From a virus: a stretch of 29,117 nt of DNA. Below are positions 1-29,117 of the stretch, one piece after another. The position numbers were made by a program, and so were the translations under genes. The stretch spans positions 1 to 29,117 of IMG/VR virus record IMGVR_UViG_3300025889_000680, one strand, 5' to 3'. Positions within the stretch are counted from its first letter, which is position 1. Each line of letters begins with the position of its first letter. The notes beneath the pieces are model-generated. The model ran no database searches. It saw only the letters and a list, made by a program, of their open reading frames with translations, and was not told the DNA's origin.

Positions 1-657
1 GAAGAGCTTCGAATCATAGAACTTGCAGAATTAAAAAAGAAACTCGCAGACGAACAACAAAAAATCGAAGAAAAGCTTCAAAAAGAGAAAGAGCAAAAAG
101 ATAAAGAAGCATTAAATCAGTATATAGCACTTCAAAAAGTACGAATCCAAGCGGTAACGGATATATTCGCGTATGGGCTACAACTAGCGACCGAATCCGG
201 AAACAAAAACAAAGAGTTGATAAATGTTCTCTTTCGAGCGAATCAGGCGGCGAGCCTTGCAAACATCGCAATGTCAACCGCCGAAGCCATAGCTGGCGCG
301 CCCGCTCAATATGGACCGCTCGCCCCACTCGCAATCCCCGCAATCGTCGCGAGCGGAGCGGTGCAGGCGGGAGTCGTATTGGCACAAAAACCCCCGCTCC
401 ATATGGGCGGTATGGTTCAACCGCTCGCACCAGACGAACAACAACGAACACTCCTCACCGGGGAATCAGTTTTAGACCGAGCCACCACACGTCGTCTCGG
501 CGAGAATGGGATTCGCGATCTTCAAAATGGAAAATCGATGTCGAATGTTATTGTGATGAATCCCTTTAAACATTTAGACCGATATAATCGCTCGGCGTTA
601 CGAAATCAAAATTCAGCATTCGCACAATTGCAACCAACGAAGAGAAGTCGTTATTAG
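1..657 (+). CDS. Tail tape measure protein, C-terminal part (truncated by window start)
   Basis: The reading frame is open from the first base and ends at TAG 655-657, giving 218 residues. It matches the C-terminus of the complete tape measure gene at 26176-28179, with about three substitutions (Y/F, E/D and G/A). It starts in a charged coiled coil (EELRIIELAELKKK), then has an Ala-rich hydrophobic stretch, and ends with the GGMVQPLAPDEQQRTLLTGE and LDRATTRRLGENG segments that are common at the ends of phage tape measure proteins. Any internal ATG, such as 217, is not the true start. This is the second copy of the locus, so it belongs to a neighbouring genome unit or a variant strain joined in the assembly. 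Confidence 0.9.
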   Translation, partial: EELRIIELAELKKKLADEQQKIEEKLQKEKEQKDKEALNQYIALQKVRIQAVTDIFAYGLQLATESGNKNKELINVLFRANQAASLANIAMSTAEAIAGAPAQYGPLAPLAIPAIVASGAVQAGVVLAQKPPLHMGGMVQPLAPDEQQRTLLTGESVLDRATTRRLGENGIRDLQNGKSMSNVIVMNPFKHLDRYNRSALRNQNSAFAQLQPTKRSRY

Positions 658-663
658 AAAATA

Positions 664-691
664 ATCGCTATCCTTATCACTATCCTATCAC
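664..691 (+). repeat. Intergenic CTATCACTATC-type repeat, short form
   Basis: This G-poor tract (ATCGCTATCC...CTATCAC) lies between the tape measure stop and the fibre start at 706. It belongs to the dispersed family found in most late-gene junctions. The equivalent junction at 28180-28249 is exactly 22 bp longer, which is two 11-bp units. The gene after it has only a weak ribosome site (CGAGAA). Confidence 0.85.
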
Positions 692-705
692 ATTCGAGAA
701 AAAAC

Positions 706-3700
706 ATGGGAACAAACAAAACACCCAACACGATTCGCGGATTCCTTATTCCACACGATTTCGATTCCTCTTATTTATGGAATGCACAATCGACTTTTAC
801 GAATGCAGATACACAACCCGCTCAACCGATACCCGCCGGAGATTACGACCTCGGATTAACGGCGACCGGTACACACGACACAAACTCGCCTTATATCATC
901 CAGACACAAAGAGCCGGACATGTCGAACGAGCTTCTTTCGTGTGGAAAGAGGAAGGAGAGACTTCGTTTTATGGTTACGATGCTTCGAACGTCTTATCGC
1001 GATGGAATTCGATAATCGATGGAACGACGCTCGTTTTAAACGATAACGTTCTTTTGGACTCCATAGGGAACGACGATGGAACATCTTGTCTTTTGTATCA
1101 ATACAAAGAAAACACAGTCGGAAACACGCGAACGATAAAAGTCGCAAAACGAGACAAAAACGGAACAGTAACAACGACCGATTTATTTCAACAGACTTCG
1201 ACAAGCACCCCGACGTTATACGGTGGGTTATGTCGTCTTTCCGATGGTTCGATTCTAGCAGTATACATGAAAGCCACCGCGACAAATGCGAACCTCCAGA
1301 GCGCGCGGAGCTACGACAACGGCGGGACGTGGTATGTCGTTTCGAAAACGTGTCTTCCTACGGACATCGATATAGATGGAACGTTCGGACCAGGGAACAC
1401 CGGTGTCGAAATCAATCGAATACGAGTCGCAGAAAGTCGCGGCGAGATTCTTTTGATTATCGGAGCATATTCGCACAATACAAGCTTATCTTCGACCGAT
1501 ATAATCATTCAGAAAGTATCGACCGATAACGGATGTTCTTTCGTACATGTCGCGACGACCGATGGTTCGCTCCACTATTTTCGACCAGACCTTATAGTCA
1601 AAAATAATTCTTTTTGGTTAGGATATATCGCGGCGACGGGACGCGCAGAAATTATCGAAATGGAATCAGCGACAATCGAAATAGACACCGCTCTTCTCTT
1701 CGCACCCCCAGAGATAACCGACGAAATCGTCGCGGCCGGTCTTACAAGTGGACATTTCACAATCGGAGAGTTTTCGATGTGGACGAACGAGACCGGGAGA
1801 ATCTTCGCAGTCTTCTTCGACGCAAGCTCGCAAGAGTTATTTTTTATGCTACAAAGCGACGACGCGAAGACATGGTATTACACCGGCGGAAATCCCTTAT
1901 CGAATCGAAAGGAAGCTTCGCAAATCTACAACATCGATGACACAAATAGTCGCCCTTCGATTATCGCCGGCTGTAATGCGCGAGGAATAAATCAGCTTTT
2001 CCACAACTACGAAGCGGTAGGAACGCGCGACAATGGGATTCACGTCTTCGAATTGGGAGGATGGACGACCGTATCTATGCCACCGGTCGTCGCGTATCCA
2101 GATTCGTTCGATTTCGGAGCATGGGATAGAACGTGGGTAGCATACGACAAACCAGATTCGACCGCCGAATATACCGCTTTCGGAACGGGAACAATCGCGG
2201 GTTTCGCACAATACGCGCAATTTACGACGACAATCGGTAATTATCGCTATGTTCGATCAGCGGCGATAACCACGACAAGCGATGAAGGAATCATCGTTCG
2301 AACGAGATTACAAGCGGTATTACAGGGACATTCGTTAAGCGGTCGCGGCGTAAAAATCACCACGACAAACAACGAGGTCGCCGCTTGGATTTCGTTAACC
2401 GGTGTCGTGATATACGACGAAGAAGGGAGTGCAACGATAGGAAGCTACAACTTCGACACGACAGATACGTTCGAACTTCTCATGTCTCTACATTCCAACA
2501 AAGTAAAAGCTTGGATTCTTACGAATGCAGATCAACCAGATAATAAGCGGTGGATAGAAGTCGCGAACGGTAATGTCGCGTCAACCGCGAGCAATCCGTC
2601 ACAGTATATTTATTTCGGACATATAACCCCCACGACCGGCGCGTTCGGAAATACGATAACAAGATGGTACGAAACACACTTCTCTTTTGGAAGTCGAACC
2701 GGAATACAGATAACCGACCAAAGCAATCCCGAAGACCTCAACGCGAGACAATACGCACCAAAGGGACAATACTTGTATCTTTCCGGTGGTGTCAAGATTT
2801 CCACCTTCGACGGGCCGGGATACGAAGGAGAGCAGTACACAATCAATCCAGATTCGACATATCCGATTCGACGCATATTCCACACGTCTTCGCCAACCCC
2901 CCGCCAAACATGGCGATCTTCGAACGAGACACAACAAACAATCGCGTTCTATTGGGATAAAACACTTCAATCGAACGCAAATTCCGATTTAGGAAGCGAT
3001 TCTATCGGTGTGTATCTTGGAAATATAAACTTTCGAACGTTCGATGTCGAGATATACGACACGACCTCGACATCGTGGGTTAACGTTGCGAGCGTAAACA
3101 ATAAAATCGCCGGTTCGACGTGGGAACGGAACGGTAATACAATCAGATCAACGAACGCCGCCGCGACCGGCGTATATGTCTCACCGGATGAATGTAAAGG
3201 CTATTCGTTCGACATGGGCGGCGGTATTGTTCGCAAAATAAAGGGAAACACCGCCGGTTATCTCAACAACACCACGACATCGAAAAGAGCGGTTATTTTC
3301 TTGGAAGATTTCGCGAATAGCGACCCAACGACAATCGCCACCGGTTATCTCATTCCCGATCAGATATGTACACTCATTCATCGCGAAGGAGCGACTGCCG
3401 GAGCTGCGATTCGAATCGTTATCGATGCACAAGACACCGCCGCCGGCTATTTCCAGATTGGTTCGTTTCTTGCCGGTGCATTCGTTGCGCCTCAACAGTA
3501 TTCGAACGGTCGAACGATAACATACACGCCCGGAATCGACACAAGCGAATCGACCGACGGCGTACTTCGTACCGTAAAGAATCACGATGGATACAGACAG
3601 ATTCGAATCGCATGGACGACCGGAATCGACATGTCAGAGATATACGATAATGTTACCAGTGCAGACTATTACAAGGCAACGACGAACGCCGGTTCCCTTC

Positions 3701-3951: not shown

Positions 3952-3964
3952 GCTCCATTCGAAA

Positions 3965-3997
3965 ATCGCTATCCTATCACTATCCTATCACCGTCAC
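3965..3997 (+). repeat. Intergenic CTATCACTATC-type repeat
   Basis: The form is ATCGCTATCC then CTATCAC units, ending CACCGTCAC. It occupies most of the gap between the fibre stop (3951) and the hub start (4008). No Shine-Dalgarno sequence is evident; the start is preceded by GATATAAAAT. Confidence 0.85.
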
Positions 3998-4007
3998 GAT
4001 ATAAAAT

Positions 4008-5648
4008 ATGCAGTACTCACAAACAGATTACGAAAACGCCGAGCTTGTCTTCTTATTGGAAATCGATTGGTTCGGATACATACATCGATTCTCTACAAAG
4101 CCTATCGTCTTCGATGGAAACGAATACGGAGGAAGCATGTCCGAGATTACGTTCGAAGAATCGACCGACGACATAGGAATAAACCCAGAGTCGAACATCG
4201 CGTCTATCGCCCTACATTTCGACGGATACAACATGGTCGAAGAGTATCGCAAGGGACGAACATTGGAAGGTCAAAAAGCGACGTTATCTTATGTTCTCAC
4301 AAAAGAAGATCAGCTCTACTCAACACACGCGATTATCGTTCTTTCCGGTCTCATACAAGAGCCGATAATCGCAGACCCCGAAGAACCAGTGTCTTTCGTT
4401 GCTTTCTCAATCGAACAAAAAGAGTACGACATCGAAACACCGGTAATCCCACCGCGAGCAATCATAACCGATTCGAAATTTCCTTATTCAGACGAAAATG
4501 CAATCGGGAAACGATACCCGCTTGTAATCGGTGAACCCGGAAAGACGAGAAAAGGCGGTGCGATAACCCAACTCTATTCGACACCGGCCTATAACTACAA
4601 AAAAGACAACGTGGGAAGCCCAACACACGAAGTTAGATACGTTATCGCGTATCATTCATGTTTTGGTGAAAACGTGACGATTTCCGATAATGTAACCGCA
4701 CCTTTAACGCGTACAATCGAAGCGGCGGTCGATGCAGAGGGACAAAGATATTCGTACATCGATTTAAGCTTTTCTTCTCTTTTGTATCCCGGCGCGACGA
4801 GCTTATCGAACAACGCCGCACACCCCGACGAATTTTGGATAACATGGTCGGACGGCGGCGGGATGAAATCACCGTATCGCGACGAAGTGCTTTCGGGAGG
4901 CGGAGACGTGGTTCGATGGCTATTGAGTCGAACAAATGCAGAAATCGACGACGGAGCGTTCGCGAACATTTCGCCGATTCTCAACGATTATCGATTCGCG
5001 GGATTCGTAAACGACGACACGACCGCCGCTTCGATGCTTTCCGACCATATTCTTCCTTTTTTGCCGATCCAGATAAAATCCGGTCCGAAGGGACTTCGAC
5101 CCATATTGCACCAATACATCGCGATTCAACATGTACAACCGATTACACATGTAATCGCCGATAAAGGAGATTGGATTCGAATCTCACCGCTAGAGACCAA
5201 AACGAACACGTCAGAGATATACAACGCGGTTCGAATAAACTTCGCTTGGAATGGGCAGACCGATTCGTTCTTTCATGCCTTATACATGGGACCGAACGCG
5301 GAAGACAACGACCTTTCGAAAAACAATCTTTATTCTTCGACAAGTGCGAATCGATATGGAATCAGCGAGGAATCATTCGACGCGATGTTTATTTATGAAA
5401 TCGGAACGGCCGCAAGAGTCGCGGGAGATTTCATTCGAAGAAAGTCTTTTCCACAAAGATTCCTTCGATTCGCCGCTTCGAAAGAATATGGATTTTTGCA
5501 GCTTGGAGATATAATCGAATTGACAAGTGATTCTTTATTCATGGATAGACAAAAATGTTCGGTCGTTTCGAAAATATGGGACGTTTCGGAATGGATTTTT
5601 GTACTTATGTTCGAAGATTCCCCGCTCCACACAGACCGCACGTTCTAA
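4008..5648 (+). CDS. Tail hub / tail tip (baseplate-like) structural protein
   Basis: The product is 546 aa, with no signal peptide or membrane segment. The motif GKRYPLVIGEPGK near residue 167-179 resembles the G-K/T-x-Y-P-x-V-x-G segment of phage tail hub proteins. The N-terminal part (VFLLEIDWFGYIHRFST) is beta-rich, as in tail tip proteins that begin with a strand-rich ring domain. Its place after the tape measure and fibre genes and before the lysis genes supports a tail-tip role. I cannot assign a precise family. The gene lies between two copies of the intergenic repeat and lacks a clear Shine-Dalgarno sequence. Confidence 0.6.
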   Translation: MQYSQTDYENAELVFLLEIDWFGYIHRFSTKPIVFDGNEYGGSMSEITFEESTDDIGINPESNIASIALHFDGYNMVEEYRKGRTLEGQKATLSYVLTKEDQLYSTHAIIVLSGLIQEPIIADPEEPVSFVAFSIEQKEYDIETPVIPPRAIITDSKFPYSDENAIGKRYPLVIGEPGKTRKGGAITQLYSTPAYNYKKDNVGSPTHEVRYVIAYHSCFGENVTISDNVTAPLTRTIEAAVDAEGQRYSYIDLSFSSLLYPGATSLSNNAAHPDEFWITWSDGGGMKSPYRDEVLSGGGDVVRWLLSRTNAEIDDGAFANISPILNDYRFAGFVNDDTTAASMLSDHILPFLPIQIKSGPKGLRPILHQYIAIQHVQPITHVIADKGDWIRISPLETKTNTSEIYNAVRINFAWNGQTDSFFHALYMGPNAEDNDLSKNNLYSSTSANRYGISEESFDAMFIYEIGTAARVAGDFIRRKSFPQRFLRFAASKEYGFLQLGDIIELTSDSLFMDRQKCSVVSKIWDVSEWIFVLMFEDSPLHTDRTF

Positions 5649-5692
5649 ATCGCTATCCTATCACTATCCTATCACCATCACTATCCTATCAC
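5649..5692 (+). repeat. Intergenic CTATCACTATC-type repeat
   Basis: It begins right after the hub gene stop codon and runs as ATCGCTATCC-TATCACTATCC-TATCACCATCAC-TATCCTATCAC, about four units. It is followed by TCGAGAAAAGACC and the ATG at 5707. Confidence 0.88.
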
Positions 5693-8639: not shown

Positions 8640-8998
8640 TGGTTATCGTATTGCCCATAGAACCCAAAGCCACACCACGTCCCAGAGTCGCCGGAAAACG
8701 AGCGTATTATCCGAAGTCCTATGTCGATTGGAAAAGACGCGCGAAAGCTCTTCTTCCATCGCTCAACGTCCCGAAATCGGTACACGTTACATTCATCTTC
8801 CCACGTCCCAAAAGGATGAAAAAAGGCGAACGCATCGAACACGATAAACGGCCGGATTTAGATAATCTTATAAAGAGCGTCTTCGACCTCTTCGATTTCG
8901 ACGATGGAAAGATAACGAACTTCGGAGCGGCGAAGTATTACGCGGCTAGTCACGAAGACGCGAAAATAATCATCGTGTGGAGAGAAGATGTCGTTTAG
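8639..8998 (+). CDS. rusA: RusA-type Holliday junction resolvase
   Basis: The product is 119 aa, the usual length for RusA. It starts with the typical strand and PRPR segment (PIEPKATPRPRV) and carries the acidic catalytic signature KRPDLDNLIKSVFD (residues about 69-82) and DDGKI (about 88-92), followed by the conserved lysine region. RusA cuts four-way DNA junctions as a dimer; in phages it resolves recombination or replication intermediates before packaging. It is coupled to the HTH gene by a TAATG overlap and overlaps the next gene by 11 bp. Confidence 0.88.
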   Translation: MVIVLPIEPKATPRPRVAGKRAYYPKSYVDWKRRAKALLPSLNVPKSVHVTFIFPRPKRMKKGERIEHDKRPDLDNLIKSVFDLFDFDDGKITNFGAAKYYAASHEDAKIIIVWREDVV

Positions 8999-9287
8999 CG
9001 ATTTTCGAACGCAATACACCGACGACAAGGTTCGCCAAATGGTCGAACCTCATGTCGTAGCACATCGAACCGAATCGCATGTCGTAGCCGGCAGAACGCT
9101 TCGATATGATGCTTTCGATATATCTTCGTATCGTGTCGTTATTACTCAATCCGAAGACCAGAGTATTTCGTTCGGTACATGTAATTGTGAAGGTTTCATG
9201 TATCGAACGAAGTGCAAACACATACACTACGCACTAAATAAAATAGGCGAGGTCACCACAACCCCGCCTAACAACACAAAACAGTAA
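8988..9287 (+). CDS. Small SWIM zinc-finger protein
   Basis: The product is 99 aa. The motif C-N-C-E-G-F-M-Y-R-T-K-C-K-H (residues about 65-78) fits the SWIM zinc-finger signature CxCxnCxH. SWIM fingers bind DNA or proteins, including recombination factors in the Shu complex and some SNF2 proteins. No other domain is visible; the N-terminal 60 residues are polar with a repeated HVVA segment. Its place between RusA and the primase suggests a role in DNA metabolism, but that is inference. Confidence 0.7.
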   Translation: MSFSDFRTQYTDDKVRQMVEPHVVAHRTESHVVAGRTLRYDAFDISSYRVVITQSEDQSISFGTCNCEGFMYRTKCKHIHYALNKIGEVTTTPPNNTKQ

Positions 9288-14315: not shown

Positions 14316-14699
14316 ATGGAAATCGGCATTTCGCTTTTAGTCGGTTTAGTTATTGGTATCGGTTCGACGATTATTGGAACGAACATAACCAAACCGAAGA
14401 CACCACTAGTTATCGAAGACAAAACAAGTCAAGAACAACAGGAAATAATCAAACAGCTAACGGACCTTGACGTAATAAAGGAACTTTGCAAACCGGAAAA
14501 CACGACAAAAATCGAAGATCGTCTTCTATGTCGCGAACTGACTTGTCTTGTATATTCCAGAGGAATCGATTCGCAAACAAGCGGGAAATCTTGTGAGGAG
14601 ATTTCGAATCTTTCGAATAGTGTTGTTCTTTTGGAATACTGTAAAACGAAAATGGAGAATAGTACAGAATGTTACGATGTCTTTTGGCGGCGAAAATAA
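14316..14699 (+). CDS. Membrane-anchored Cys-rich protein, function unknown
   Basis: The product is 127 aa from ATG 14316, chosen for its GGGAG ribosome site; the ATG at 14298 overlaps the TerS stop and is the alternative. An N-terminal span (ISLLVGLVIGIGSTIIGTNI) is followed by about 100 polar residues with six Cys (in ELCKP, LLCREL, LTCLV, KSCEE, EYCKT and ECYDV). Six Cys after a signal anchor suggest an exported domain with disulfides. Candidate roles are a spanin-like lysis component or a superinfection-exclusion protein; neither is shown. It is odd to find such a gene between TerS and TerL. Confidence 0.6.
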   Translation: MEIGISLLVGLVIGIGSTIIGTNITKPKTPLVIEDKTSQEQQEIIKQLTDLDVIKELCKPENTTKIEDRLLCRELTCLVYSRGIDSQTSGKSCEEISNLSNSVVLLEYCKTKMENSTECYDVFWRRK

Positions 14700-14743
14700 T
14701 CGCCATCACTATCCCATCACTATCCCATCATTATCACCGTCAC
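14700..14743 (+). repeat. Intergenic CTATCACTATC-type repeat
   Basis: Begins one base after the stop at 14699: CGCCATCACTATCCC, then CATCACTATCCC, ending ATTATCACCGTCAC. It carries C in place of T in the unit (TATCCCATC). Confidence 0.85.
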
Positions 14744-14749
14744 TATAAA

Positions 14750-14766
14750 CATTAGAGCACTCGAGC
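14750..14766. promoter_or_regulatory. GCACTCGAGC element directly upstream of TerL
   Basis: CATTAGAGCACTCGAGC precedes the TerL start by 2 bp. The same element, CATTCGAGCACTCGAGC, precedes the gene at 23383. No normal Shine-Dalgarno sequence is present, so this element may serve in its place or be an operator. The role is unknown. Confidence 0.5.
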
Positions 14767-14768
14767 AA

Positions 14769-14936
14769 ATGAAAAACCTTCCCACACTAGCCCGAAAAAT
14801 CAAGAATCTACAAAAGCGAACGGATAACGACCCGCTTGTATACTTTCGACCGACACTTCCACAAAAGCAATTCATCGAAGATACGTCGAAGCTGAAGATA
14901 TTGCTAGGCGGGGTCGACCGCCGGTTCGATAAATGA
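14769..14936 (+). CDS. terL: Terminase large subunit, N-terminal fragment up to the P-loop
   Basis: The product is 55 aa. PLVYFRPTLPQKQFIEDTSK then LKILLGG is the standard TerL N-terminus that leads into the Walker A loop. The frame then runs into a perfect inverted repeat (14912-14950), reads VDRRFDK and stops at TGA 14934-14936. The stop overlaps the ATG of the second half (ATGA at 14933-14936). The expected continuation NQVGKTW is present 47 nt downstream in another frame. The gene is thus either recoded, truly split in two, or broken by an insertion. Confidence 0.8.
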   Translation: MKNLPTLARKIKNLQKRTDNDPLVYFRPTLPQKQFIEDTSKLKILLGGVDRRFDK

Positions 14937-14950
14937 ACCGGCGGTCGACC
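14912..14950 (+). other. Perfect inverted-repeat insertion inside the TerL Walker A motif (candidate bypass element)
   Basis: The arms GGTCGACCGCCGGTTC (14912-14927) and GAACCGGCGGTCGACC (14935-14950) pair over 16 bp without mismatch, with loop GATAAAT. The hairpin starts at the last base of a Gly codon (GGG 14910-14912) and is followed, after GAAAAC, by a Gly codon (GGA 14957-14959) in the downstream frame. Skipping the 47 nt 14913-14959 gives ILLGG-NQVGKTW, a canonical G-x4-GKT P-loop. The layout (matched take-off and landing codons, hairpin right after take-off, stop in the gap) recalls the T4 gene 60 bypass and mitochondrial byp elements. A mobile insertion is the main alternative. Confidence 0.75.
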
Positions 14951-16249
14951 GAAAACGGAAATCAAGTGGGTAAAACATGGGCGAGCGCGGCGTTATTGCT
15001 AATGCACGCGCTCGGAAGACATCCCACAATCAAAGGAATAACGCGCGAATCGTGGTTGATATGCTATTCGCACGAACAAAGCAGAATCATTCAACAAAAA
15101 TTGTATGATTTATGCCCCAAATACGCACTTGCAGACGATTGCGAATTTATTCGCGGAAAGGGATTTCGCGGTCTTGCTCCGATGGTACGCTTCAAAGAAG
15201 AGTACGGCGGCGCGATTATCCGAATCAAGACGGCGAGCCAGGGAATCGGACTTGAAAGCGGTACATGTGGACTAGTCGTAATCGATGAACCGGTGAATAG
15301 TGAGACGTTGAACGCTTGTATCGCTCGCACGACCAGAGGAGGACCGAACGGGACGCGAGGAATCGTCGCGATGTCGCTAACCCCGGTGGGGAATGTCGAC
15401 ATAACCTATCTCAAAAACCTTATCGAAGACAATAAAATTTCGGTACACAGAGCCGCGCTCAACATCGCGAACACAACGCCTATCGGATGTCGACCGCTCA
15501 TGTCAGAGGAACAAATTCATTCGATGATCGAAGCGTTCCTTCCCATAGACCGCGAACAACGTGTTAACGCGTCGCTAGACGTAGCCGCCGAAGGCGTTAT
15601 TTTCGATAATTTCGACCCTTCGATGATTTCCTCTCAACCCGTCGCGCCCGGTGGAAAGTACGAACTTTGTATCGGGATCGATCATGGAAGCTCGCCGAAT
15701 AGCCAGGTCGTAACCCTAGCATGTATCGACAAAAGAGAACCAGAACACCCACGAATATACATGCTAGACGAATATGTTTCGGGACAAGCACCGCCCGAAA
15801 CACACGCTCGAGCGATACTTGAAATGTTAAAACGTAACGACATGAAACCCGAACAAGTGCAGTATTGGACGGGAGATGGAACACACCACGCCACGCGAAG
15901 TCGCGACGGCTTCAAGATGTCTAATATTCTTTTAATGCGAGCATTCGAAACCCTTCTCGGATACCCGCCGCGTAACCTTCCCTTCACGATTCGACGGCCG
16001 GTGAAATGGAGACATAGTGTGTATTATACAAGCTCGCTAATACATGCTATTATGTCAAGGAAGCATTTTTATATACACCCCAATTGCAAACAACTCATTT
16101 TATCGATAAAAAATTGGACTATGAAACGAACTCAATCGTCACGAAGTACAGACCCGTTCGGACATGCAATCGATTCGATGCGCTATTGTGTCTCTTCTTG
16201 TATTGACCAAAGATTCGCACGTCCACACAGTATCCAAATAACAAGGTAA
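14933..16249 (+). CDS. terL: Terminase large subunit, main part (ATPase and nuclease)
   Basis: The product is 438 aa from ATG 14933, but the first nine residues (MNRRSTENG) come from the inverted repeat. Native sequence resumes at NQVGKTW (residue 10). Walker B is GLVVIDEP near residues 113-120. The nuclease domain shows CIGIDHGS (about 246), GDGTHH (about 314) and DPFGHAIDSMRY (about 406-417), the acidic residues of the RNase H-like fold. TerL powers DNA translocation into the capsid and cuts concatemers. Joined to the upstream fragment by a 47-nt skip it would be 477 aa, a normal length. Portal follows 4 bp downstream. Confidence 0.88.
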   Translation: MNRRSTENGNQVGKTWASAALLLMHALGRHPTIKGITRESWLICYSHEQSRIIQQKLYDLCPKYALADDCEFIRGKGFRGLAPMVRFKEEYGGAIIRIKTASQGIGLESGTCGLVVIDEPVNSETLNACIARTTRGGPNGTRGIVAMSLTPVGNVDITYLKNLIEDNKISVHRAALNIANTTPIGCRPLMSEEQIHSMIEAFLPIDREQRVNASLDVAAEGVIFDNFDPSMISSQPVAPGGKYELCIGIDHGSSPNSQVVTLACIDKREPEHPRIYMLDEYVSGQAPPETHARAILEMLKRNDMKPEQVQYWTGDGTHHATRSRDGFKMSNILLMRAFETLLGYPPRNLPFTIRRPVKWRHSVYYTSSLIHAIMSRKHFYIHPNCKQLILSIKNWTMKRTQSSRSTDPFGHAIDSMRYCVSSCIDQRFARPHSIQITR

Positions 16250-16253
16250 AGAC

Positions 16254-17711
16254 ATGTATAATAATCCACCACCCTTTCCAAAAATGCCAACGCCCGAAGA
16301 CCAAAGACGAGTCGAACATCAAGCTCTTCGACGTCGACTTATAATGGGAACGTACGAACAAGATTTAGAAGAGGAAATGTTACGACATTTTTCATCGGAT
16401 AGGTATATGGCATTGGGACCGGTGGACATGTCTTCGAATGTTTTGGAGCAGATTACACGACAATTATCGGTATTGTACAACGTCGCTCCGACGGTACACC
16501 ACACCGAAGACATAAGCGAGCTAACCGGTTCGAACGGATATGTAACGCTCGCCGGACTATTCCCCTTAATGCAGCAAGCTCAACAATTCATCTTAGCGAT
16601 AAACGAATGTTTCGTTCGAATCGATGTCGCACCACATAAAGTCGGACAACCCGTTTCGAAAGCCGGTCTTAATTACCGAATAGTCACGCCCGACGCGGTA
16701 TATTGCGAATCGAATCCCGATAACCCCGACGAACCCACCTATTATCGCGAGATACGTCTTCGTGTACATCCAGAGACGAAAGAACATGTATATGTCGCGG
16801 ACGTTATCGACATACGAAATCCAGACGAACCGCTCTTCGGTATGTACGAAGTTAGACCAGATGGGGAACTCGGAAAGGACGTGTCGTTATTGTACATGGG
16901 ACACGAAACGCATATCGGCAAATCGTACCCATACAGATACGAAGACGGTCGTCCCTTCCTTCCTTTAGAACTATATCATGCACAAAAAACCGGCCTTTTG
17001 TGGAATACGTGGAGGAATAGCCAAACATGTTACGGTTCGCTTGTATCGGCATGTCTAACTTCGTGGGGAATCCACCTTATTCGCGATTGTTCATGGCCAC
17101 AACGCTACGCGGCCGGATTATCGATTTCCGGTCTTGGTGTGGAGAATGGCGATCTTCTTGGAAGACGAGCTTCGATTCCGGCGGACCCTTCTTCGATTCT
17201 TATGTTTTTTCAAGATTCCGAAAGCGGCGGTCAACCTCTTATCGGACAATTTCAACCAGGCGCAGACCCGACAAAAATGTTCGAAACGATTGCGCAGTAT
17301 GAATACAAAGTCGCAATGGCGGCGGGACTTTCCACTTCGGTTCTCAAACAAACCGCAGACATTCGAAGCGGCTTTTCTCTTTCGGTATCCAGAGAAGGAC
17401 AAAGAGAAGCGTCGCGAAAATATGCACCATTACAAAGCTATTACGACGAACGACTTCTCGCGAAATCGGCGGCGTTATGTAATCGATTTTTAGATTCGAA
17501 TCTTCCCGAAAATAATTATCGAATCCAATACGCGCAACTTCCACAAAGCCCCGAAGAGATAAAAGCGATTCGAGAAGACATTCTCGAAAAATTAGCGGCC
17601 GGGCTTATTTCCCCGATACAAGCGATGCAAATTCTCAACCCCGGAATCGATGAAAACACAGCTCGCGAAATGTTATTGAAAATAAAGCGAGAACGAATCG
17701 AACTCATGTAA
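16254..17711 (+). CDS. Portal protein
   Basis: The product is 485 aa, a usual portal length, directly after TerL. It has an acidic N-terminal helix (YEQDLEEEMLRHFSSDRY), a beta-rich middle (PDAVYCESNPDNPDEPTYYR) and the helical GLSTSVLKQTADIRSGFSLS then SREGQREASRKYAPLQSYYD region that resembles the portal stem and crown helices. The portal forms the dodecameric ring at one capsid vertex through which TerL pumps DNA. The call rests mainly on order and general pattern. Confidence 0.78.
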   Translation: MYNNPPPFPKMPTPEDQRRVEHQALRRRLIMGTYEQDLEEEMLRHFSSDRYMALGPVDMSSNVLEQITRQLSVLYNVAPTVHHTEDISELTGSNGYVTLAGLFPLMQQAQQFILAINECFVRIDVAPHKVGQPVSKAGLNYRIVTPDAVYCESNPDNPDEPTYYREIRLRVHPETKEHVYVADVIDIRNPDEPLFGMYEVRPDGELGKDVSLLYMGHETHIGKSYPYRYEDGRPFLPLELYHAQKTGLLWNTWRNSQTCYGSLVSACLTSWGIHLIRDCSWPQRYAAGLSISGLGVENGDLLGRRASIPADPSSILMFFQDSESGGQPLIGQFQPGADPTKMFETIAQYEYKVAMAAGLSTSVLKQTADIRSGFSLSVSREGQREASRKYAPLQSYYDERLLAKSAALCNRFLDSNLPENNYRIQYAQLPQSPEEIKAIREDILEKLAAGLISPIQAMQILNPGIDENTAREMLLKIKRERIELM

Positions 17712-17713
17712 AA

Positions 17714-17764
17714 ATCGCTATCCTATCACTATCCCTATCACCATCACTATCCTATCATTATCAC
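17714..17764 (+). repeat. Intergenic CTATCACTATC-type repeat, long form
   Basis: Two bases after the portal stop: ATCGCTATCCTATCACTATCCC, TATCACCATCACTATCC, TATCATTATCACC. One extra C breaks the 11-bp phase. It is followed by a C-rich stretch and AAAGG before the ATG at 17796. Confidence 0.87.
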
Positions 17765-17795
17765 CCCCTCAACCATCCAACAAAGGCGACCTTTT

Positions 17796-20734: not shown

Positions 20735-20974
20735 ATGGCAAGAGATTACAAAGACGAATACAAAAAATTTCATTCCTCAAAAGAAGCGAAACAACATCGA
20801 GCAATGCGAAACACCGCACGTCGAAGAATGGAAGCGGCCGGTCTTGTAAAAAAAGGCGACGGAAAACATGTGGATCACATAAAACCGTTATCGAAAGGAG
20901 GAACGAACGGAACGAAAAATCTTCGTGTGGTATCGGCAAAAACGAACCTTCAAAAAGGGAATCGTCGAAAATAA
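20735..20974 (+). CDS. HNH endonuclease-like small protein
   Basis: The product is 79 aa. The HNH signature is HVDHIKPLSKGGTNGTKNLR then VVSAKTNLQKGNR (residues about 44-77), with a basic N-terminal helix. It lacks the paired CxxC zinc sites of longer HNH proteins. Small HNH proteins near terminase genes can assist packaging, and others are homing endonucleases; here it stands alone between a terminator and the capsid promoter. If it is a homing nuclease, the TerL insertion would be an obvious thing to test as its target, but no link is shown. Confidence 0.8.
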   Translation: MARDYKDEYKKFHSSKEAKQHRAMRNTARRRMEAAGLVKKGDGKHVDHIKPLSKGGTNGTKNLRVVSAKTNLQKGNRRK

Positions 20975-21024
20975 TCGCTATCCTATCACTATCCTATCAC
21001 CATCACTATCCTATCATTATCACC
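20975..21024 (+). repeat. Intergenic CTATCACTATC-type repeat, long form
   Basis: Begins right after the HNH stop: TCGCTATCCTATCACTATCC, TATCACCATCACTATCC, TATCATTATCACC. It is nearly identical to the copies at 5649 and 17714. Confidence 0.88.
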
Positions 21025-21041
21025 GACCCACATTGTCTTTA

Positions 21042-21177: not shown

Positions 21178-22101
21178 ATGTCAAATACATATTCTTCGAT
21201 GTCTGATCTTCGTATGACATCGATTATCTCTAGCGAGATAAACCTTCTTCTTAAAGATACCGCAAACATCCGAAACACCGGTCTTATTCAGTACGCCGGG
21301 AGTGTAAATGCACTTGGAACCGATTCGATTAAAGTACGTCTTGTAGGTCTTAACGGTAGAGATTCTTTTGTTTCAAGAACCGAAGTACAAGCGGCAACAT
21401 CAACAAACATTCAAGACGCAAGCGTAACAATGCAAGTTAGCCGTTATTCTTTGGTATATGATATATCCGACCTTTTGAACATGACCGCAACAAATGCACA
21501 ATTCGAACCAGACCCATTCGCGCTCGCCGCTTCTATGTCCGGTTCTTACGAAACATTGTTCGCGGAGCTCACCGCATCAGCGGCCGCCGGTGTCTCTTCC
21601 GGTACAAGCACAAGCGGAAGCACAATGTCGGTATCCACATTCTTCGAAGGTCTTTACGACCTAGAACAAGCCGATTCTTATCGCGGCGCGCCCGGTCCAT
21701 TCTATAGCATTTTACACCCAAAAAGCTTAACCGAGCTACAAGCATCACTTCGTGCGGAACAAAACAACATCATTTCCCAAATGGCGGGAACTGAATCGAT
21801 GATTTCCGCGAAAGGTCTGGGATATATGGGTAAATTGTTCGGTGTCGACGTGTATCGCTCTTCTCACATCGAAAGCGATGGAACAGATTACGAAAACTTT
21901 ATCGCGGACGCGGGCGCGTTAGCATACGCCGACGGAGTCCCACAGATTCTCGGCGCGCCCCAGGTTATGGAAATGGACAAGGTAATTGTCGAACTTGAAA
22001 GAACCGGAAAAGAAGCTCTTACTTCCGTTATTGGTCACTGTTACCTTGCGGTATCCGTAATCGACGCGAACCGTATTACAAGACTTCTCGCCGTAGACTA
22101 G
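21178..22101 (+). CDS. Major capsid protein
   Basis: The product is 307 aa. It follows the scaffold and fibre genes and has its own strong promoter. The pattern is that of an HK97-fold coat: an N-terminal helical arm (DLRMTSIISSEINLLLKDTA), an E-loop-like beta hairpin, a long helical region (FEGLYDLEQADSYRGAPGPF then YSILHPKSLTELQASLRAEQ), and a C-terminal A-domain with KLFGVDVYRSSHI and ADAGALAYADGVPQI. No delta-domain protease gene is seen, consistent with the separate scaffold. Confidence comes from order and pattern together. Confidence 0.8.
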   Translation: MSNTYSSMSDLRMTSIISSEINLLLKDTANIRNTGLIQYAGSVNALGTDSIKVRLVGLNGRDSFVSRTEVQAATSTNIQDASVTMQVSRYSLVYDISDLLNMTATNAQFEPDPFALAASMSGSYETLFAELTASAAAGVSSGTSTSGSTMSVSTFFEGLYDLEQADSYRGAPGPFYSILHPKSLTELQASLRAEQNNIISQMAGTESMISAKGLGYMGKLFGVDVYRSSHIESDGTDYENFIADAGALAYADGVPQILGAPQVMEMDKVIVELERTGKEALTSVIGHCYLAVSVIDANRITRLLAVD

Positions 22102-22113
22102 ACGGCTTCTTTT

Positions 22114-22191
22114 GTGGCAAGATTGGCGGTGTTTTTACCTAGTCGCCTAATATCGCCGGTCTTGTCACTCTTTACAATAGGCAACTAGGAG
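22114..22191 (+). promoter_or_regulatory. Two interlocking RNA helices (possible pseudoknot) covering the ribosome site of the next gene
   Basis: Helix 1 pairs 22114-22128 with 22154-22168 over 15 bp, including three G-U pairs. Helix 2 pairs CCTAGT-C-GCCTA (22138-22149) with TAGGC-A-ACTAGG (22178-22189), 11 bp with one mismatch. The 5' arm of helix 2 lies in the loop of helix 1, so together they form an H-type pseudoknot or two competing states. The last arm overlaps the AGGAG (22187-22191) that serves the ATG at 22200. Helix 2 would therefore hide the ribosome site. Confidence 0.62.
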
Positions 22192-22972: not shown

Positions 22973-23314
22973 ATGGCATACGCATCAAATAACGGATATG
23001 TATTCGACAATAGACCTATTTTTCGCGGTGGAATAATCGCAAAAATAATTACCGCTGATTTCGATATGGACGAAAAAAGCGAGACATACCAGATAATTAC
23101 AAATAACAAAGGAAGCAGCGCGACCATTAAGCTTCCCGCAGAAAAAGAAGGTTCGATGTATTGGTTGAAAAACAATTCTTCATCCGCACATGCTTTCGTA
23201 ATTCAAACAGACGAAGGAAGCCCCGTTATCGGCGGCGCCGGATTAGCCGCCGGAAAAGCCGCTCTTGTTGTTTGCGATGGAACAAATTGGCACGTTGTAT
23301 TTCAACAAGCATAA
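22973..23314 (+). CDS. Beta-rich structural protein, possible head decoration (113 aa)
   Basis: Sequence ends with AALVVCDGTNWHVVFQQA, a strand pattern (G-T-N-W-x-V) often found at the ends of phage decoration or fibre proteins. SATIKLPAEKEGSMYWLKNN and FVIQTDEGSPVIGGAG also fit a small beta-sandwich. The start has a strong AAAGGAG. It lies between capsid and connector genes. Decoration protein is a positional inference. Confidence 0.6.
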   Translation: MAYASNNGYVFDNRPIFRGGIIAKIITADFDMDEKSETYQIITNNKGSSATIKLPAEKEGSMYWLKNNSSSAHAFVIQTDEGSPVIGGAGLAAGKAALVVCDGTNWHVVFQQA

Positions 23315-23358
23315 TCGCCATCACTATCCTATCACTATCCTATGATTATCACTGTCAC
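23315..23358 (+). repeat. Intergenic CTATCACTATC-type repeat
   Basis: Starts right after the stop at 23314: CGCCATCACTATCC, TATCACTATCC, TATGATTATCACTGTCAC. One G replaces C in the TATCATTATC segment. Confidence 0.86.
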
Positions 23359-23366
23359 CCATAAAC

Positions 23367-23382
23367 ATTCGAGCACTCGAGC
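23367..23382. promoter_or_regulatory. GCACTCGAGC element abutting the start at 23383
   Basis: ATTCGAGCACTCGAGC contains TCGAG-CA-CTCGA, a 12-bp palindrome, immediately before the ATG. It is the twin of 14750-14766 before TerL. There is no Shine-Dalgarno sequence. Confidence 0.5.
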
Positions 23383-24156
23383 ATGGCCACAGATTCGACA
23401 CCATACGCACCACACATTCGATACATTGAACTTTTAGAAAGAAATGTATCGAACGTGACGCGTTTAGAAATATTTCGCGACGGTTCTCAGATAATCCCGA
23501 CCGCCGCGAAATATACTCTGTTTCGCCCAGACGGAGCGGGAATCGTAGAAGACGCGGTCGCGACGGTACTTGGAGACGGTACGCTTCAATATACCCACCC
23601 CGCGAATCATTTCCCCGAAAACATTCTTCTCGGTGAAGGATATGTTCAAACATGGGAAGCGACAATCGAAGGAGATACATACTTCTTTCGACGTTCGATT
23701 GCAGTCGTATTACGTCGACTATACCCAACGGTATCGGATACAGACTTAGAAACGGAATATAGCGACCTTGCGAATCTTCGCCCGGCGAGCTTGACTTCGT
23801 ATCAATCATATATCGATTCTTCGTGGTACGAGATTCTTCGAAGAGTACGTCGAACCGGTATGGGCTACGAATACCTAGTCTTAACGCCAGAATCATTTCA
23901 TGATGCGTTATTACACCTTACCTTATACAAAATCTTTCGGGATTTCCATAGCTCTTTGGGACAAAGCGGGAACGCGCGCTTTTTGGATTTAGCACAAGCC
24001 CATCTTCAACACTATAACGCCGAATACGACATGATTAACTTCGTGTACGATGATCAGCACGAAGGAAGAGCAGACGACCCCAACAAGCGAACAAGGGGAC
24101 GACCGGTGGTGTATCTCACCGCGCCCGGTCCGAATCGATGGCTAAGACGACGATGA
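23383..24156 (+). CDS. Head-tail connector / adaptor protein
   Basis: The product is 257 aa. The first half is beta-rich with an immunoglobulin-like pattern (TAAKYTLFRPDGAGIVEDAV, GYVQTWEATIEGDTYFFRRS). The second half is helical (SYQSYIDSSWYEILRRVRRT, FHDALLHLTLYKIFRDFHSS, RFLDLAQAHLQHYNAEYDMI), as in head completion adaptors that dock on the portal. It lies between the capsid cluster and tail genes. It overlaps the next gene by 19 bp. Confidence 0.6.
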   Translation: MATDSTPYAPHIRYIELLERNVSNVTRLEIFRDGSQIIPTAAKYTLFRPDGAGIVEDAVATVLGDGTLQYTHPANHFPENILLGEGYVQTWEATIEGDTYFFRRSIAVVLRRLYPTVSDTDLETEYSDLANLRPASLTSYQSYIDSSWYEILRRVRRTGMGYEYLVLTPESFHDALLHLTLYKIFRDFHSSLGQSGNARFLDLAQAHLQHYNAEYDMINFVYDDQHEGRADDPNKRTRGRPVVYLTAPGPNRWLRRR

Positions 24157-24570: not shown

Positions 24571-25077
24571 ATGGCTTTTTCAGTAGTCCCCAAAATGAGA
24601 AGAGACGGAACACTCGTTCTCAAAGATGGAACAGGAACACCCGTAACACTAGAAGTCGCCTTCGAAACCGGAGATTTCAACTTCACACCCACAAAGGCGG
24701 GACAAGTGATTATTCGCGACCGACACGCGATAACCAACGTTCGACGCGGTGATGAAGAGCCAAGCGCGAGCGGTTCTTTTACGGTATACATGCGAGAATT
24801 TACCGACGGAAGCCAAGCCGGAAACGTATTGGATTTCGTAAATCAAACCGGACTCTATTCTTCGAATGTTTCGACCGGTGCAACCGGAACACCACGAATC
24901 GAAGAATACTGTATAGACATTCAATACACCGTAGCCGAAACAGACAGCGAAGGCGCGAATCATGTCGCGGTTCTTTCCAAATGTATCGCCGATGTAGTTT
25001 TTACAGAAGGAGACCCATCCACGCTCGCGATAAACTTTGTGTGTTTTGGTGGCGTATCCTATACCGGACCGGCATAA
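24571..25077 (+). CDS. Major tail protein (tail tube)
   Basis: The product is 168 aa from ATG 24571, with AGGAGA upstream; an in-frame start at 24511 overlaps the previous gene and is rejected. The protein is beta-rich (LVLKDGTGTPVTLEVAFETG, then PSASGSFTVYMREF), with IEEYCIDIQYTVAETDSEGA and STLAINFVCFGGVSY at the end, a typical tube-protein pattern. It is followed by the frameshifting chaperone genes and the tape measure gene, which fixes its identity by order. Confidence 0.75.
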   Translation: MAFSVVPKMRRDGTLVLKDGTGTPVTLEVAFETGDFNFTPTKAGQVIIRDRHAITNVRRGDEEPSASGSFTVYMREFTDGSQAGNVLDFVNQTGLYSSNVSTGATGTPRIEEYCIDIQYTVAETDSEGANHVAVLSKCIADVVFTEGDPSTLAINFVCFGGVSYTGPA

Positions 25078-25119
25078 TAATCACTATCCTATCACTATCC
25101 TATCATTATCATTATCATC
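25078..25119 (+). repeat. Intergenic CTATCACTATC-type repeat
   Basis: TAATCACTATCC, TATCACTATCC, TATCATTATCATTATCATC, directly after the major tail protein stop. Here the TATCAT part is itself repeated in 6-bp units. Confidence 0.86.
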
Positions 25120-25134
25120 TATTGGAGACTAGAC

Positions 25135-26175: not shown

Positions 26176-28179
26176 ATGCCCGCAGACGTGAATAAGACAA
26201 TCGAAATCAGCATGACCGCCGATTTAAAGTCACTCCAAAAGCAATTGTCGAAAATCCCCGGTATGACAAAAGAAGAAGCCCAGGCAATGACAAAAGCATT
26301 GCAAAGGGAACTTCGACAAGCCCAAGCAGCCGCAAAGAAGACAGCCCAAGTTAATAAAACCGCTATGAAACAGGTAAAACAATCAACCGACGCGGCCGCG
26401 AGATCAGCAAAGAATCTTAGAATACAAGCTCGCCAAATGTCCAGCGCATTCGGAGCAATGGAAGAGGTCGTCGGAGAAGTGTCGCCAGAACTCGCTAGTT
26501 TAGCTATGACAATTGGGACCGTCGGGTCTGCTTTTAGAATATTAGCGCGGTCACTTGCCACCGGGAATCCTTACGTTCTTGCTTTAGTCGCCGCAGTCAC
26601 AGCCGCGGCCGCGATATATAGTGTTTTAACGTCAGGTATGAAAGCAGCCGAAGAGCAACAAAAACGACTAATAAAAGCGACAGAACAACTAACCGAGAAG
26701 ATGAAAAATCAACGAGACCTTGCGAAAGCAGTCATAACGGACAATCGCAACGCTTCGACTGAACTTGCAGTCTTCACAGGACAAATGACACAATTAGAAG
26801 CCGACATTAGGAGCATCAGAGACGACGCAGAAGAAAAACTTTTAAAACAACTCTCAACCCAAGACAATTATATAAAACAACAAAAACAAAGTATAGCCCT
26901 AGTCGAAAAAGCGAAAAAAGCCTACGGAGATTTAACAGACGAAGAACACGAACAATTATTGTTAGTTATGGCAGGTTCTAAGCATAGATTTATCAACCAG
27001 GGAATGTTATCGACGAGCGCAGGATTTAGCTTGCAAATCCGAAAACTAGCTGCTGAACTTAATATGCAACTTGAAAAAGAAACAAATTTTAGACATAAGA
27101 TTCGCGAAACGAACGAAGAAACGACAGAAAAGCAAATCGAACTCCTCAAATTACAAGACGAAATGAAAAAGGAACAAGAGGAAGAAGAGAAACGACAAGA
27201 GCGTATCGCCTTAGCCAGAGAAGCGGCCGCCGAACGTCAAAGGCAACTTTCCGACGCATATAATCAGACCTTAAGCGCAAGAGAACAATCAGAAAAAAGA
27301 ATCGTAGACTTTGTTATTTCAAGACTCAACGAAGAAGATCAGCTCAACGCGAACGCACAAAAGCGAAAAGACGAAATCGAAGCAGAAAAAAAAGCATTAT
27401 TCGCACAATACGAAGCAATGTCCCAACTTGCGAAAACAGAAAAAGACCGAGCAAAGCTTAAAGAATTAGAAGCCGAAACCATAGAAGCGACCGCCGCTCT
27501 TACACAAGAACAATACAATGTCGAAGAGCTTCGAATCATAGAACTTGCAGAATTAAAAAAGAAACTCGCAGACGAACAACAAAAAATCGAAGAAAAGCTT
27601 CAAAAAGAGAAAGAGCAAAAAGATAAAGAAGCACTAAATCAATATATAGCACTTCAAAAAGTACGAATCCAAGCAGTTACGGATATATTCGCGTTCGGAT
27701 TACAACTTGCGACCGAATCCGGAAACAAAAACAAAGACTTAATAAATGTTCTCTTTCGTGCGAATCAAGCGGCGAGCCTTGCGAACATCGCGATGTCAAC
27801 CGCCGAAGCCATAGCCGCCGCCCCCGCTCAATATGGACCGCTTGCACCACTCGCAATCCCCGCAATCGTCGCGAGCGGAGCGGTACAAGCCGGTGTCGTA
27901 TTGGCACAAAAACCCCCGCTCCATATGGGCGGTATGGTTCAACCGCTCGCACCCGATGAACAACAAAGAACACTTCTCACCGGAGAATCAGTTTTAGACC
28001 GAGCCACCACGCGTCGTCTTGGCGAGAATGGGATTCGCGATCTTCAAAATGGAAAATCGATGTCGAATGTTATTGTTATGAATCCCTTCAAACATTTAGA
28101 CCGATATAATCGTTCGGCGTTACGCAATCAAAATTCAGCATTCGCACAATTGCAACCAACGAAGAGAAGTCGTTATTAG
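26176..28179 (+). CDS. Tail tape measure protein
   Basis: The product is 667 aa. N-terminal helical region (DLKSLQKQLSKIPGMTKEEA), a hydrophobic span near residues 134-156 (NPYVLALVAAVTAAAAIYSV), then a long coiled coil rich in Lys, Glu and Gln (about 160-510), an Ala-rich segment (ANIAMSTAEAIAAAPAQYGP) and a conserved-looking tail. Such proteins set tail length; at about 0.15 nm per residue this suggests a tail near 100 nm. GAGGA precedes the start. The C-terminal third is repeated, with variation, at 1-657. Confidence 0.88.
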   Translation: MPADVNKTIEISMTADLKSLQKQLSKIPGMTKEEAQAMTKALQRELRQAQAAAKKTAQVNKTAMKQVKQSTDAAARSAKNLRIQARQMSSAFGAMEEVVGEVSPELASLAMTIGTVGSAFRILARSLATGNPYVLALVAAVTAAAAIYSVLTSGMKAAEEQQKRLIKATEQLTEKMKNQRDLAKAVITDNRNASTELAVFTGQMTQLEADIRSIRDDAEEKLLKQLSTQDNYIKQQKQSIALVEKAKKAYGDLTDEEHEQLLLVMAGSKHRFINQGMLSTSAGFSLQIRKLAAELNMQLEKETNFRHKIRETNEETTEKQIELLKLQDEMKKEQEEEEKRQERIALAREAAAERQRQLSDAYNQTLSAREQSEKRIVDFVISRLNEEDQLNANAQKRKDEIEAEKKALFAQYEAMSQLAKTEKDRAKLKELEAETIEATAALTQEQYNVEELRIIELAELKKKLADEQQKIEEKLQKEKEQKDKEALNQYIALQKVRIQAVTDIFAFGLQLATESGNKNKDLINVLFRANQAASLANIAMSTAEAIAAAPAQYGPLAPLAIPAIVASGAVQAGVVLAQKPPLHMGGMVQPLAPDEQQRTLLTGESVLDRATTRRLGENGIRDLQNGKSMSNVIVMNPFKHLDRYNRSALRNQNSAFAQLQPTKRSRY

Positions 28180-28185
28180 AAAATA

Positions 28186-28234
28186 ATCGCTATCACTATC
28201 CTATCACTATCCTATCACTATCCTATCACCATCA
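28186..28234 (+). repeat. Intergenic CTATCACTATC-type repeat, expanded copy
   Basis: The clearest tandem array: ATCG, then CTATCACTATC three times in perfect register, then CTATCACCATCAC. It is the expanded counterpart of 664-691, with two extra units. Confidence 0.9.
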
Positions 28235-28249
28235 CATTCGAGAAGAACA

Positions 28250-29117
28250 ATGGGAACAAACAAAACACCCAACACGATTCGCGGTTTCCTCATTCCACAC
28301 GATTTCGATTCCTCTTATTTATGGAATGCAGAATCGACTTTTACGAATGCAGATACACAACCCGCTCAACCGATACCCGCCGGAGATTACGACCTCGCAT
28401 TAACGGCGACCGGTACACACGACACAAACTCGCCTTATATCATCCAGACACAAAGAGCCGGACATGTCGAACGAGCTTCTTTCGTGTGGAAGGAAGAAGG
28501 AGAGACCGATTTTTATGGTTACGATGCTTCGAACGTCTTATCGCGATGGGATTCGATAATCGATGGGACGACGCTCGTTTTAGACGATAACGTTCTTTTG
28601 GACTCCATAGGGAACGACGATGGAACGTCTTGTATTTTGTATCAATACAAAGAGAACACAGTCGGAAACACGCGAACGATAAAAGTCGCAAAACGAGACA
28701 AAAACGGAACAATAACAACGACCAATTTATTCCAACAGACTTCGACAAGCACCCCGACGTTATACGGTGGATTATGTCGTCTTTCCGATGGTTCGATTCT
28801 TGCTATATACATGAAGGCCACCGCGACAAATGCGAACCTCCAGAGCGCGCGGAGCTACGACAACGGCGCGACGTGGTATGTCGTTTCGAAAACATGTCTT
28901 CCTACCGACATCGATATAGATGGAACGTTCGGAGCAGGGAACACCGGTGTCGAAATCAATCGAATCAGAGTCGCAGAGAGTCGCGGCGAAATTCTTTTGA
29001 TTATCGGAGCATATTCGCACAATACAAGCTTATCTTCGACCGATATAATCATTCAGAAAGTATCGACCGATAACGGATGTTCTTTCGTACATGTCGCGAC
29101 GACCGATGGTTCGCTCC
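28250..29117 (+). CDS. Tail fibre protein, N-terminal part (second copy, truncated by window end)
   Basis: This has 289 codons matching the start of the 1081-aa fibre gene at 706. Substitutions are mostly conservative or charge-changing (Q/E, N/D, S/D, G/A, V/I), one of them in an Asp-box (NGGTW to NGATW). The frame is open to the last base. It shows that the locus after the tape measure gene is this fibre gene, closing the genome circle. Confidence 0.9.
   Translation, partial: MGTNKTPNTIRGFLIPHDFDSSYLWNAESTFTNADTQPAQPIPAGDYDLALTATGTHDTNSPYIIQTQRAGHVERASFVWKEEGETDFYGYDASNVLSRWDSIIDGTTLVLDDNVLLDSIGNDDGTSCILYQYKENTVGNTRTIKVAKRDKNGTITTTNLFQQTSTSTPTLYGGLCRLSDGSILAIYMKATATNANLQSARSYDNGATWYVVSKTCLPTDIDIDGTFGAGNTGVEINRIRVAESRGEILLIIGAYSHNTSLSSTDIIIQKVSTDNGCSFVHVATTDGSL

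Follow-up and report, generated by a model that had tools for sequence, protein, structure and literature searches.

A 47-nt hairpin insert in the P-loop of a phage terminase gene as a likely translational bypass element

Results

Organisation of the terL locus

The DNA analysed in this work (hereafter the window) is a stretch of 29,117 nt, IMG/VR record IMGVR_UViG_3300025889_000680. The gene for the terminase large subunit (TerL) lies there downstream of the terminase small subunit gene and upstream of the portal gene, and no second terL was seen in this contig. The TerL frame opened by the ATG at 14769 reads MKNLPTLARKIKNLQKRTDNDPLVYFRPTLPQKQFIEDTSKLKILLGG, followed by VDRRFDK and the TGA at 14934–14936; it is intact up to ...KLKILLGG, beyond which it runs into a perfect 16-bp hairpin and then terminates. 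The motif NQVGKTW begins at 14960 in a frame different from the upstream one, the frame before the hairpin coding for TerL residues 1–48 and the frame after it for the remainder of the protein, which matches Pfam Terminase_6N and the PHROG terminase large subunit. The distance from the GGG at 14910–14912 to the GGA at 14957–14959 is exactly 47 nt, and an ATGA overlap is found at 14933–14936. The hairpin, the frames and the coordinates had been described in an initial annotation of the window, and on reading the sequence all of them held as stated. The features of the locus are as follows:

14769–14936, plus strand: TerL N-terminal reading frame (48 TerL codons, then VDRRFDK and TGA), 96% identical to the N-terminus of the intact TerL of L004
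14898–14912, plus strand: approach to take-off, ATA TTG CTA GGC GGG, from codon comparison with relatives
14910–14912, plus strand: inferred take-off codon GGG (Gly48), from the absence of any other in-register glycine pair at 47 nt
14912–14950, plus strand: hairpin with arms 14912–14927 and 14935–14950 and loop 14928–14934, with three both-sided pair changes in L005/L007
14913–14959, plus strand: 47-nt surplus (44 nt and the landing codon), missing in insert-free relatives
14930–14932, plus strand: TAA of the downstream (NQVGKT) frame, from frame reading
14934–14936, plus strand: TGA of the take-off frame, found in three of three insert variants
14951–14956, plus strand: spacer GAAAAC before the landing codon (TAAATC in L005, GAAAAT in L006), from variant comparison
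14957–14959, plus strand: inferred landing codon GGA, the first GGA of the gap in the window, in L005 and in the visible part of the L006 gap
14960–16249, plus strand: remaining part of TerL, beginning with NQVGKT and comprising the end of Walker A and the ATPase and nuclease domains, from Pfam and PHROG matches and relatives
14983–15013, plus strand: stem-loop 3' of the landing codon, from folding; it may correspond to the 3' stem-loop of T4, but insert-free L004 has it too

The insert among TerL relatives

Searching the viral contigs with the C-terminal part of the protein yielded 23 loci, and the TerL alignment 36. The majority of these 36 viral TerL relatives read LGGNQ[VI]GK[TS] without any intervening sequence. 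In the insert-free relatives (L004, L008, L009 and more distant groups) LGG is joined directly to NQVGKT without gain or loss of a residue, and the 47 nt of the window are therefore an exact surplus. The claim of the initial annotation that a 47-nt skip from GGG to GGA rebuilds the P-loop exactly was thus upheld.

The initial annotation had also proposed looking for P-loop inserts in TerL homologues and for the hairpin repeat in related phages. Inserts were found in L003, L005, L007 and L006, and the repeat search returned only the known contigs among the viral contigs and nothing from the phage collection. Three sequence variants are represented, namely the window and L003 (which are identical), L005/L007, and L006, and the insert-bearing contigs derive from at least four metagenomes. 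The sample of L003, 3300006637, comes from Delaware Bay (PMC6775973), and the insert-bearing group consists of estuarine bacterial viruses. L005 and L007 originate from two metagenomes, differ at 2 of 4494 nt, agree through the insert and are about 75–78% identical to the window. L003, L005 and L007 align to TerL across the additional 47 nt, while the L006 contig starts inside the hairpin and its full insert length is unseen. The insertion nucleotide is identical in every insert variant, the insert is 47 nt long in every complete case, the apex-to-landing part of L006 is of the same length, and insert and frame are otherwise unchanged over about 24% nucleotide divergence. Pattern scans and an upstream-context scan of the viral contigs, intended to detect the element in further genes or phages, gave only the known contigs, the phage collection contained no match to the insert, and no second element of the terL type was detected in the contigs of the close relatives examined or by pattern in the viral contigs.

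The distribution of the insert on the terL tree is patchy: the window carries it and its sister L004, at about 94% nucleotide identity, does not; L005 and L006 carry it without being sisters, and L008 and L009 lack it. Gain or loss of the element by allele replacement between relatives is therefore likely. Near the insert the window and L004 differ at 8 positions in 30 nt versus 2.1 expected; since 9 differences are reached elsewhere, this signal is only suggestive, and co-conversion around the insert remains no more than a possibility.

Two contigs, L006 and L010, break off at the insertion site or no more than about 20 nt away from it, the former within the hairpin and the latter directly behind NQVG, perhaps due to mixed reads with and without the insert in those samples. 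A TerL relative is carried by a Rhodospirillaceae MAG; because the identity is only 51% it is not decisive for the host, the assignment of which remains open.

Structure and conservation of the hairpin

In the window the hairpin has arms GGTCGACCGCCGGTTC and GAACCGGCGGTCGACC, 16 bp with 100% complementarity, and a 7-nt loop. Such a stem is far above chance, since the expected count of 16-bp stems of this kind is about 6 × 10−5 per 29 kb and the longest stem in each of 25 Markov genomes measured 8–12 bp; nowhere else in the whole window does a perfect stem reach 10 bp. RNA folding of positions 14905–14959 gave −35.6 kcal/mol (z −6.6), and the two complete variants reach −35.6 and −36.1 kcal/mol with z of about −6.5.

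The arms of L005 are GGGCGGTCGCCGGTTC and GAACCGGCGACCGTCC. The 3' arm of L006 is GAACCGGGGGGCAACC; its 5' arm lies outside the contig and was looked for in the viral contigs without success. Between the window and L005, 3 of the 16 pairs are altered on both sides (U-A/G-U, A-U/G-C and C-G/U-A) and none on one side only. All three remain standard RNA pairs, one of them being G-U, and the inner nine pairs as well as the loop length of 7 nt are common to both. The cells are 100% paired in the true register versus 15–50% in slid controls, and the chance that three changes per arm would land on partner positions is about 1/560 by simple counting that does not yet require pairing. This covariation rests on three pairs in two complete stem variants, the third being half visible, and the shuffle control, in which 57 of 500 shuffles matched the covariation score, is weak and was not relied on. 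The pairing of the hairpin is thus kept while its letters change between the window and L005/L007. The retained G-U pair, a mismatch in DNA, points to RNA as the probable level at which the structure is maintained. The 'fresh' mobile hairpin offered as an alternative by the initial annotation does not fit, because the insert is old enough for compensatory changes, though the patchy distribution leaves gain and loss possible.

Codons, stops and selection

The take-off-frame TGA is present in all three variants; in the window and L005 it is the eighth codon after the putative take-off site. A TAA of the downstream frame precedes this TGA in the window (at 14930) and follows it in L005/L007, and the downstream frame of L006 is open in its visible part. 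In both complete variants skipping from GGG to GGA restores ILLGGNQVGKT, and no pair of glycine codons other than GGG/GGA lies in register at a distance of 47 nt. Among the glycine codons met earlier in the gap there is no GGA; GGT and GGC occur there, and GGG too in L005 and L006. The take-off GGG and landing GGA are preserved in the window and L005, and the landing GGA also in L006. Counted from the start, 48 codons precede the skip in the window and 47 in L005. GGG is rare in this genome (23 of 273 glycine codons in ten genes), and TTG, CTA and GGC are of low usage as well. The run TTG CTA GGC GGG is identical in the window and L005, and the insert-free relatives use different codons; it may slow the approach to the take-off site or may merely be DNA inherited with the element, either being possible.

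Comparison of the window with L005 gave dN/dS values of 0.17/1.24 for the N-terminal part and 0.09/1.92 for the C-terminal part; with L004, dN was 0.006 and dS 0.36. Strong purifying selection acts on TerL both before and after the insert. In comparisons that involve insert-bearing genomes dN/dS stays far below 1 upstream and downstream of the gap, and full-length TerL is therefore most probably made and used, although no protein data are available.

Discussion

We consider programmed translational bypassing, with 47 nt skipped between GGG and GGA, to be the likely explanation of the terL insert, an inference drawn from sequence alone without RNA, proteomic or reporter data. The same interpretation was put forward in the initial annotation; it is supported, and it survives best among the alternatives listed there. 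In this scheme the ribosome would decode 48 codons (47 in L005) and arrive at the glycine codon GGG, at the third base of which the 16-bp hairpin starts; the P-site pairing would be lost there, and the ribosome with its peptidyl-tRNA-Gly would slide beyond the hairpin. Re-pairing at the GGA 47 nt downstream would let decoding resume at AAT CAA GTG GGT AAA, the predicted product being an unbroken ILLGGNQVGKT P-loop. A single tRNA-Gly(UCC) is inferred to read both codons, the hairpin may trigger take-off or drive the sliding, and the rare codons ahead of it may slow the ribosome. The exact surplus, its position, the both-sided conservation of the hairpin, the matched glycines, the blocking stops and the two-sided purifying selection are established by the sequences; that the ribosome is the agent of the skipping is inferred. 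Against bypassing stand the lack of several gene 60 elements, the small number of variants and the absence of RNA, protein or reporter data.

The main rival is removal of the 47 nt at the RNA level by an unknown small-intron or endonuclease–ligase mechanism. It predicts the exact surplus and the conserved RNA hairpin equally well and would leave the same comparative signature as bypassing, so that it cannot be excluded by sequence; the known routes, however, fail. The insert is far below group I or group II intron size, an Rfam search gave no family at threshold and only three weak chance matches, and the archaeal bulge-helix-bulge (two 3-nt bulges, 4 bp apart) is unmet in 13 of 13 registers in both the window and L005. 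No bacterial or phage machinery for such 47-nt splicing is known to us, and we regard this explanation as unlikely. Weaker still is the split gene, also suggested in the initial annotation, in which TerL would be made as an N-terminal peptide and a C-terminal part with its own start, the two being coupled via the ATGA at the hairpin apex. In the window and L003 a frame of 438 aa begins at the ATG at 14933, which shares bases with the TGA, and ATGA is present in L005 too; but in L005/L007 the frame from this ATG reads MNRRPS and meets TAA before NQVGKT, which refutes the apex restart for these two; after it, a common start codon is found only past the Walker A lysine. L006 carries ATT instead of ATG, and the break would in any case fall within the P-loop. 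Very unlikely too is a single programmed frameshift, −1 or equivalent, joining the two frames inside the insert and adding about 16 residues to the P-loop. The open downstream frame in the visible part of L006 would permit it. In L005/L007, however, it is excluded because the take-off-frame TGA and the downstream-frame TAA come in the wrong order, and in the window the TAA at 14930 and the TGA at 14934 almost touch, which leaves hardly any room; extra Walker A residues would probably be destructive, and no relative has them.

It might also be supposed that the insert-bearing genomes are broken or helper-dependent, their inactive terL being compensated by packaging by co-infecting relatives with an intact gene such as L004, and that the hairpin is a DNA-level element. 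The existence of an insert-free sister at 94% identity and the patchy distribution speak for this, but in the insert-bearing lineages both flanks of the insert have very low dN, insert and frame have otherwise stayed stable across about 24% nucleotide divergence, and one pair retained in the stem is G-U, which in DNA would be mismatched; we consider this very unlikely. An assembly or sequencing artefact at the hairpin, another alternative of the initial annotation, could be argued from the break of L006 within the hairpin and from the 94% identity of the overlapping window ends, which implies mixed strains. It is practically ruled out by the insert lying at the same nucleotide with differing sequences (three variants) in separate assemblies of several metagenomes, and by L005 and L007, two nearly identical contigs that agree through it. 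An intein was rejected as well, all variants having take-off-frame stops and the insert being just 47 nt long with no open in-frame insert.

The proposed terL bypass resembles that of T4 gene 60 in several respects. In gene 60, 46 codons are followed by a gap of 50 nt passed from GGA to GGA (PMC11194080; PMC3014915), and both systems share a frame-breaking gap of about 50 nt located some 46–48 codons from the start, glycine take-off and landing codons that one tRNA can read, a take-off hairpin and the absence of the gap from relatives. E. coli ribosomes on gene 60 show constant sliding processivity up to 56 nt (PMC11194080), and the 47-nt gap, lying within this range, counts in favour of bypassing. 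The T4 parallels drawn by the initial annotation were borne out in the size of the gap, the match of the glycine codons and the hairpin at take-off. The stop codon lies 21 nt after take-off instead of adjacent to it (the next codon is GUC in the window and GGC in L005), no excess structure indicative of a 5' stem-loop before take-off was found relative to synonymous recodings or shuffles, and the GAG six nt before landing is replaced by GAAAAC, TAAATC or GAAAAT in the window, L005 and L006, respectively. The gene is a different one, with no homology expected, the codons are GGG and GGA rather than two GGA, the hairpin of 16 bp and about −36 kcal/mol contrasts with the much smaller take-off loop of T4, no homing endonuclease is adjacent, and the element occurs in several divergent relatives with its stem changed on both sides. 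The nascent-peptide signal of gp60 is KKYK at 14–17; basic residues are found here at 16–17 (window) and 14–16 (L005), about 30 residues before take-off, and may correspond to it, but they are not specific because insert-free relatives have them too. The 3' stem-loop (P 0.0015 in the window, 0.03 in L006, 0.10 in L005) may be the counterpart of that of T4 but is not a bypass-specific signal, being equally strong in insert-free L004. The terL element is thus probably similar to gene 60 in its working, by analogy and with bypassing not demonstrated, and is not homologous to it.

The mitochondrial byp elements of Magnusiomyces capitatus are likewise short frame-breaking inserts that are absent from relatives and need skipping. 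Byp elements carry hairpins and are of similar length. They are, however, present there in 81 copies in 12 genes and act apparently independently of mRNA context (PMC5009743), whereas we find one per genome in one gene. Bypassing has also been proposed for terL of Streptomyces phage Hau3, so the idea of a bypass in a terminase is not wholly new; that case is tied to a rare UUA codon in Streptomyces, is possibly regulatory, and no conserved hairpin is mentioned in the relevant text (PMC5009743). What is new here is the element itself, together with its hairpin and the evidence from relatives; a literature search that covered open-licence papers, and neither subscription journals nor preprints, returned no earlier description of it. 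Mycobacteriophage TerL inteins (PMC5050341) are comparable as mobile insertions in the ATPase domain near functional motifs, but they are in-frame proteins, whereas here stops prevent translation through the insert.

The element apparently spreads between relatives by allele replacement, and its persistence may be due to protection from a homing endonuclease that would attack the P-loop codons, as has been proposed for the T4 gene 60 gap, or to regulation of TerL, both being possible. A bolder reading, towards which we lean only slightly, is that an uncultured phage lineage makes its terminase by bypassing that arose independently of T4 gene 60, with an RNA structure conserved over divergent genomes and exchanged between relatives, without an adjacent stop and with the hairpin at the take-off codon as the main signal. 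Its further component, retention of the element as resistance to such an endonuclease, is conjectural.

For decades the case for efficient bypassing has rested on one phage gene and the mitochondria of one yeast lineage, other reports being spurious or untested (PMC5009743). If our interpretation is true, another natural example backed by comparative evidence would reveal the features that are required: the adjacent stop, the 5' stem-loop and the GAG seem absent here, and the matched glycine codons and the take-off hairpin remain. Bypass elements may spread among phages, and gene-calling programs would conceal them by reporting split or broken genes.

Other features of the genome

The ends of the window (1–1573 and 27523–29117) overlap by about 1.6 kb and are 94% identical but not the same; from this overlap the contig probably spans the whole circularly permuted genome of about 27.5 kb, running into a different strain. 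A small free-standing HNH protein is encoded at 20735–20974 and conserved in relatives whether or not they carry the insert; its gene was rejected as a mobA-like marker, being present in either case. A 24-bp near-perfect hairpin, the second strongest in the window, lies at 9163–9215 inside the gene of a small SWIM-like zinc-finger protein (8988–9287).

Short intergenic repeats of CACTATCCTATCAC-like units are found between many genes (657–691, 3962–3997, 5647–5691, 14692–14767, 17709–17765, 20967–21025, 23311–23383, 25075–25122 and 28179–28244), and similar units precede terL in L004 and L005. A long imperfect hairpin at 22098–22190 is placed just after the gene 21178–22101, which by position we take to be that of the major capsid protein, and before the next gene. 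It has no Rfam match. Its counterparts are L055:8345–8441, L058:6815–6911 and L059:6386–6482, and across the four genomes 7 of 28 predicted pairs show both-sided changes; it could be a conserved terminator or processing element.
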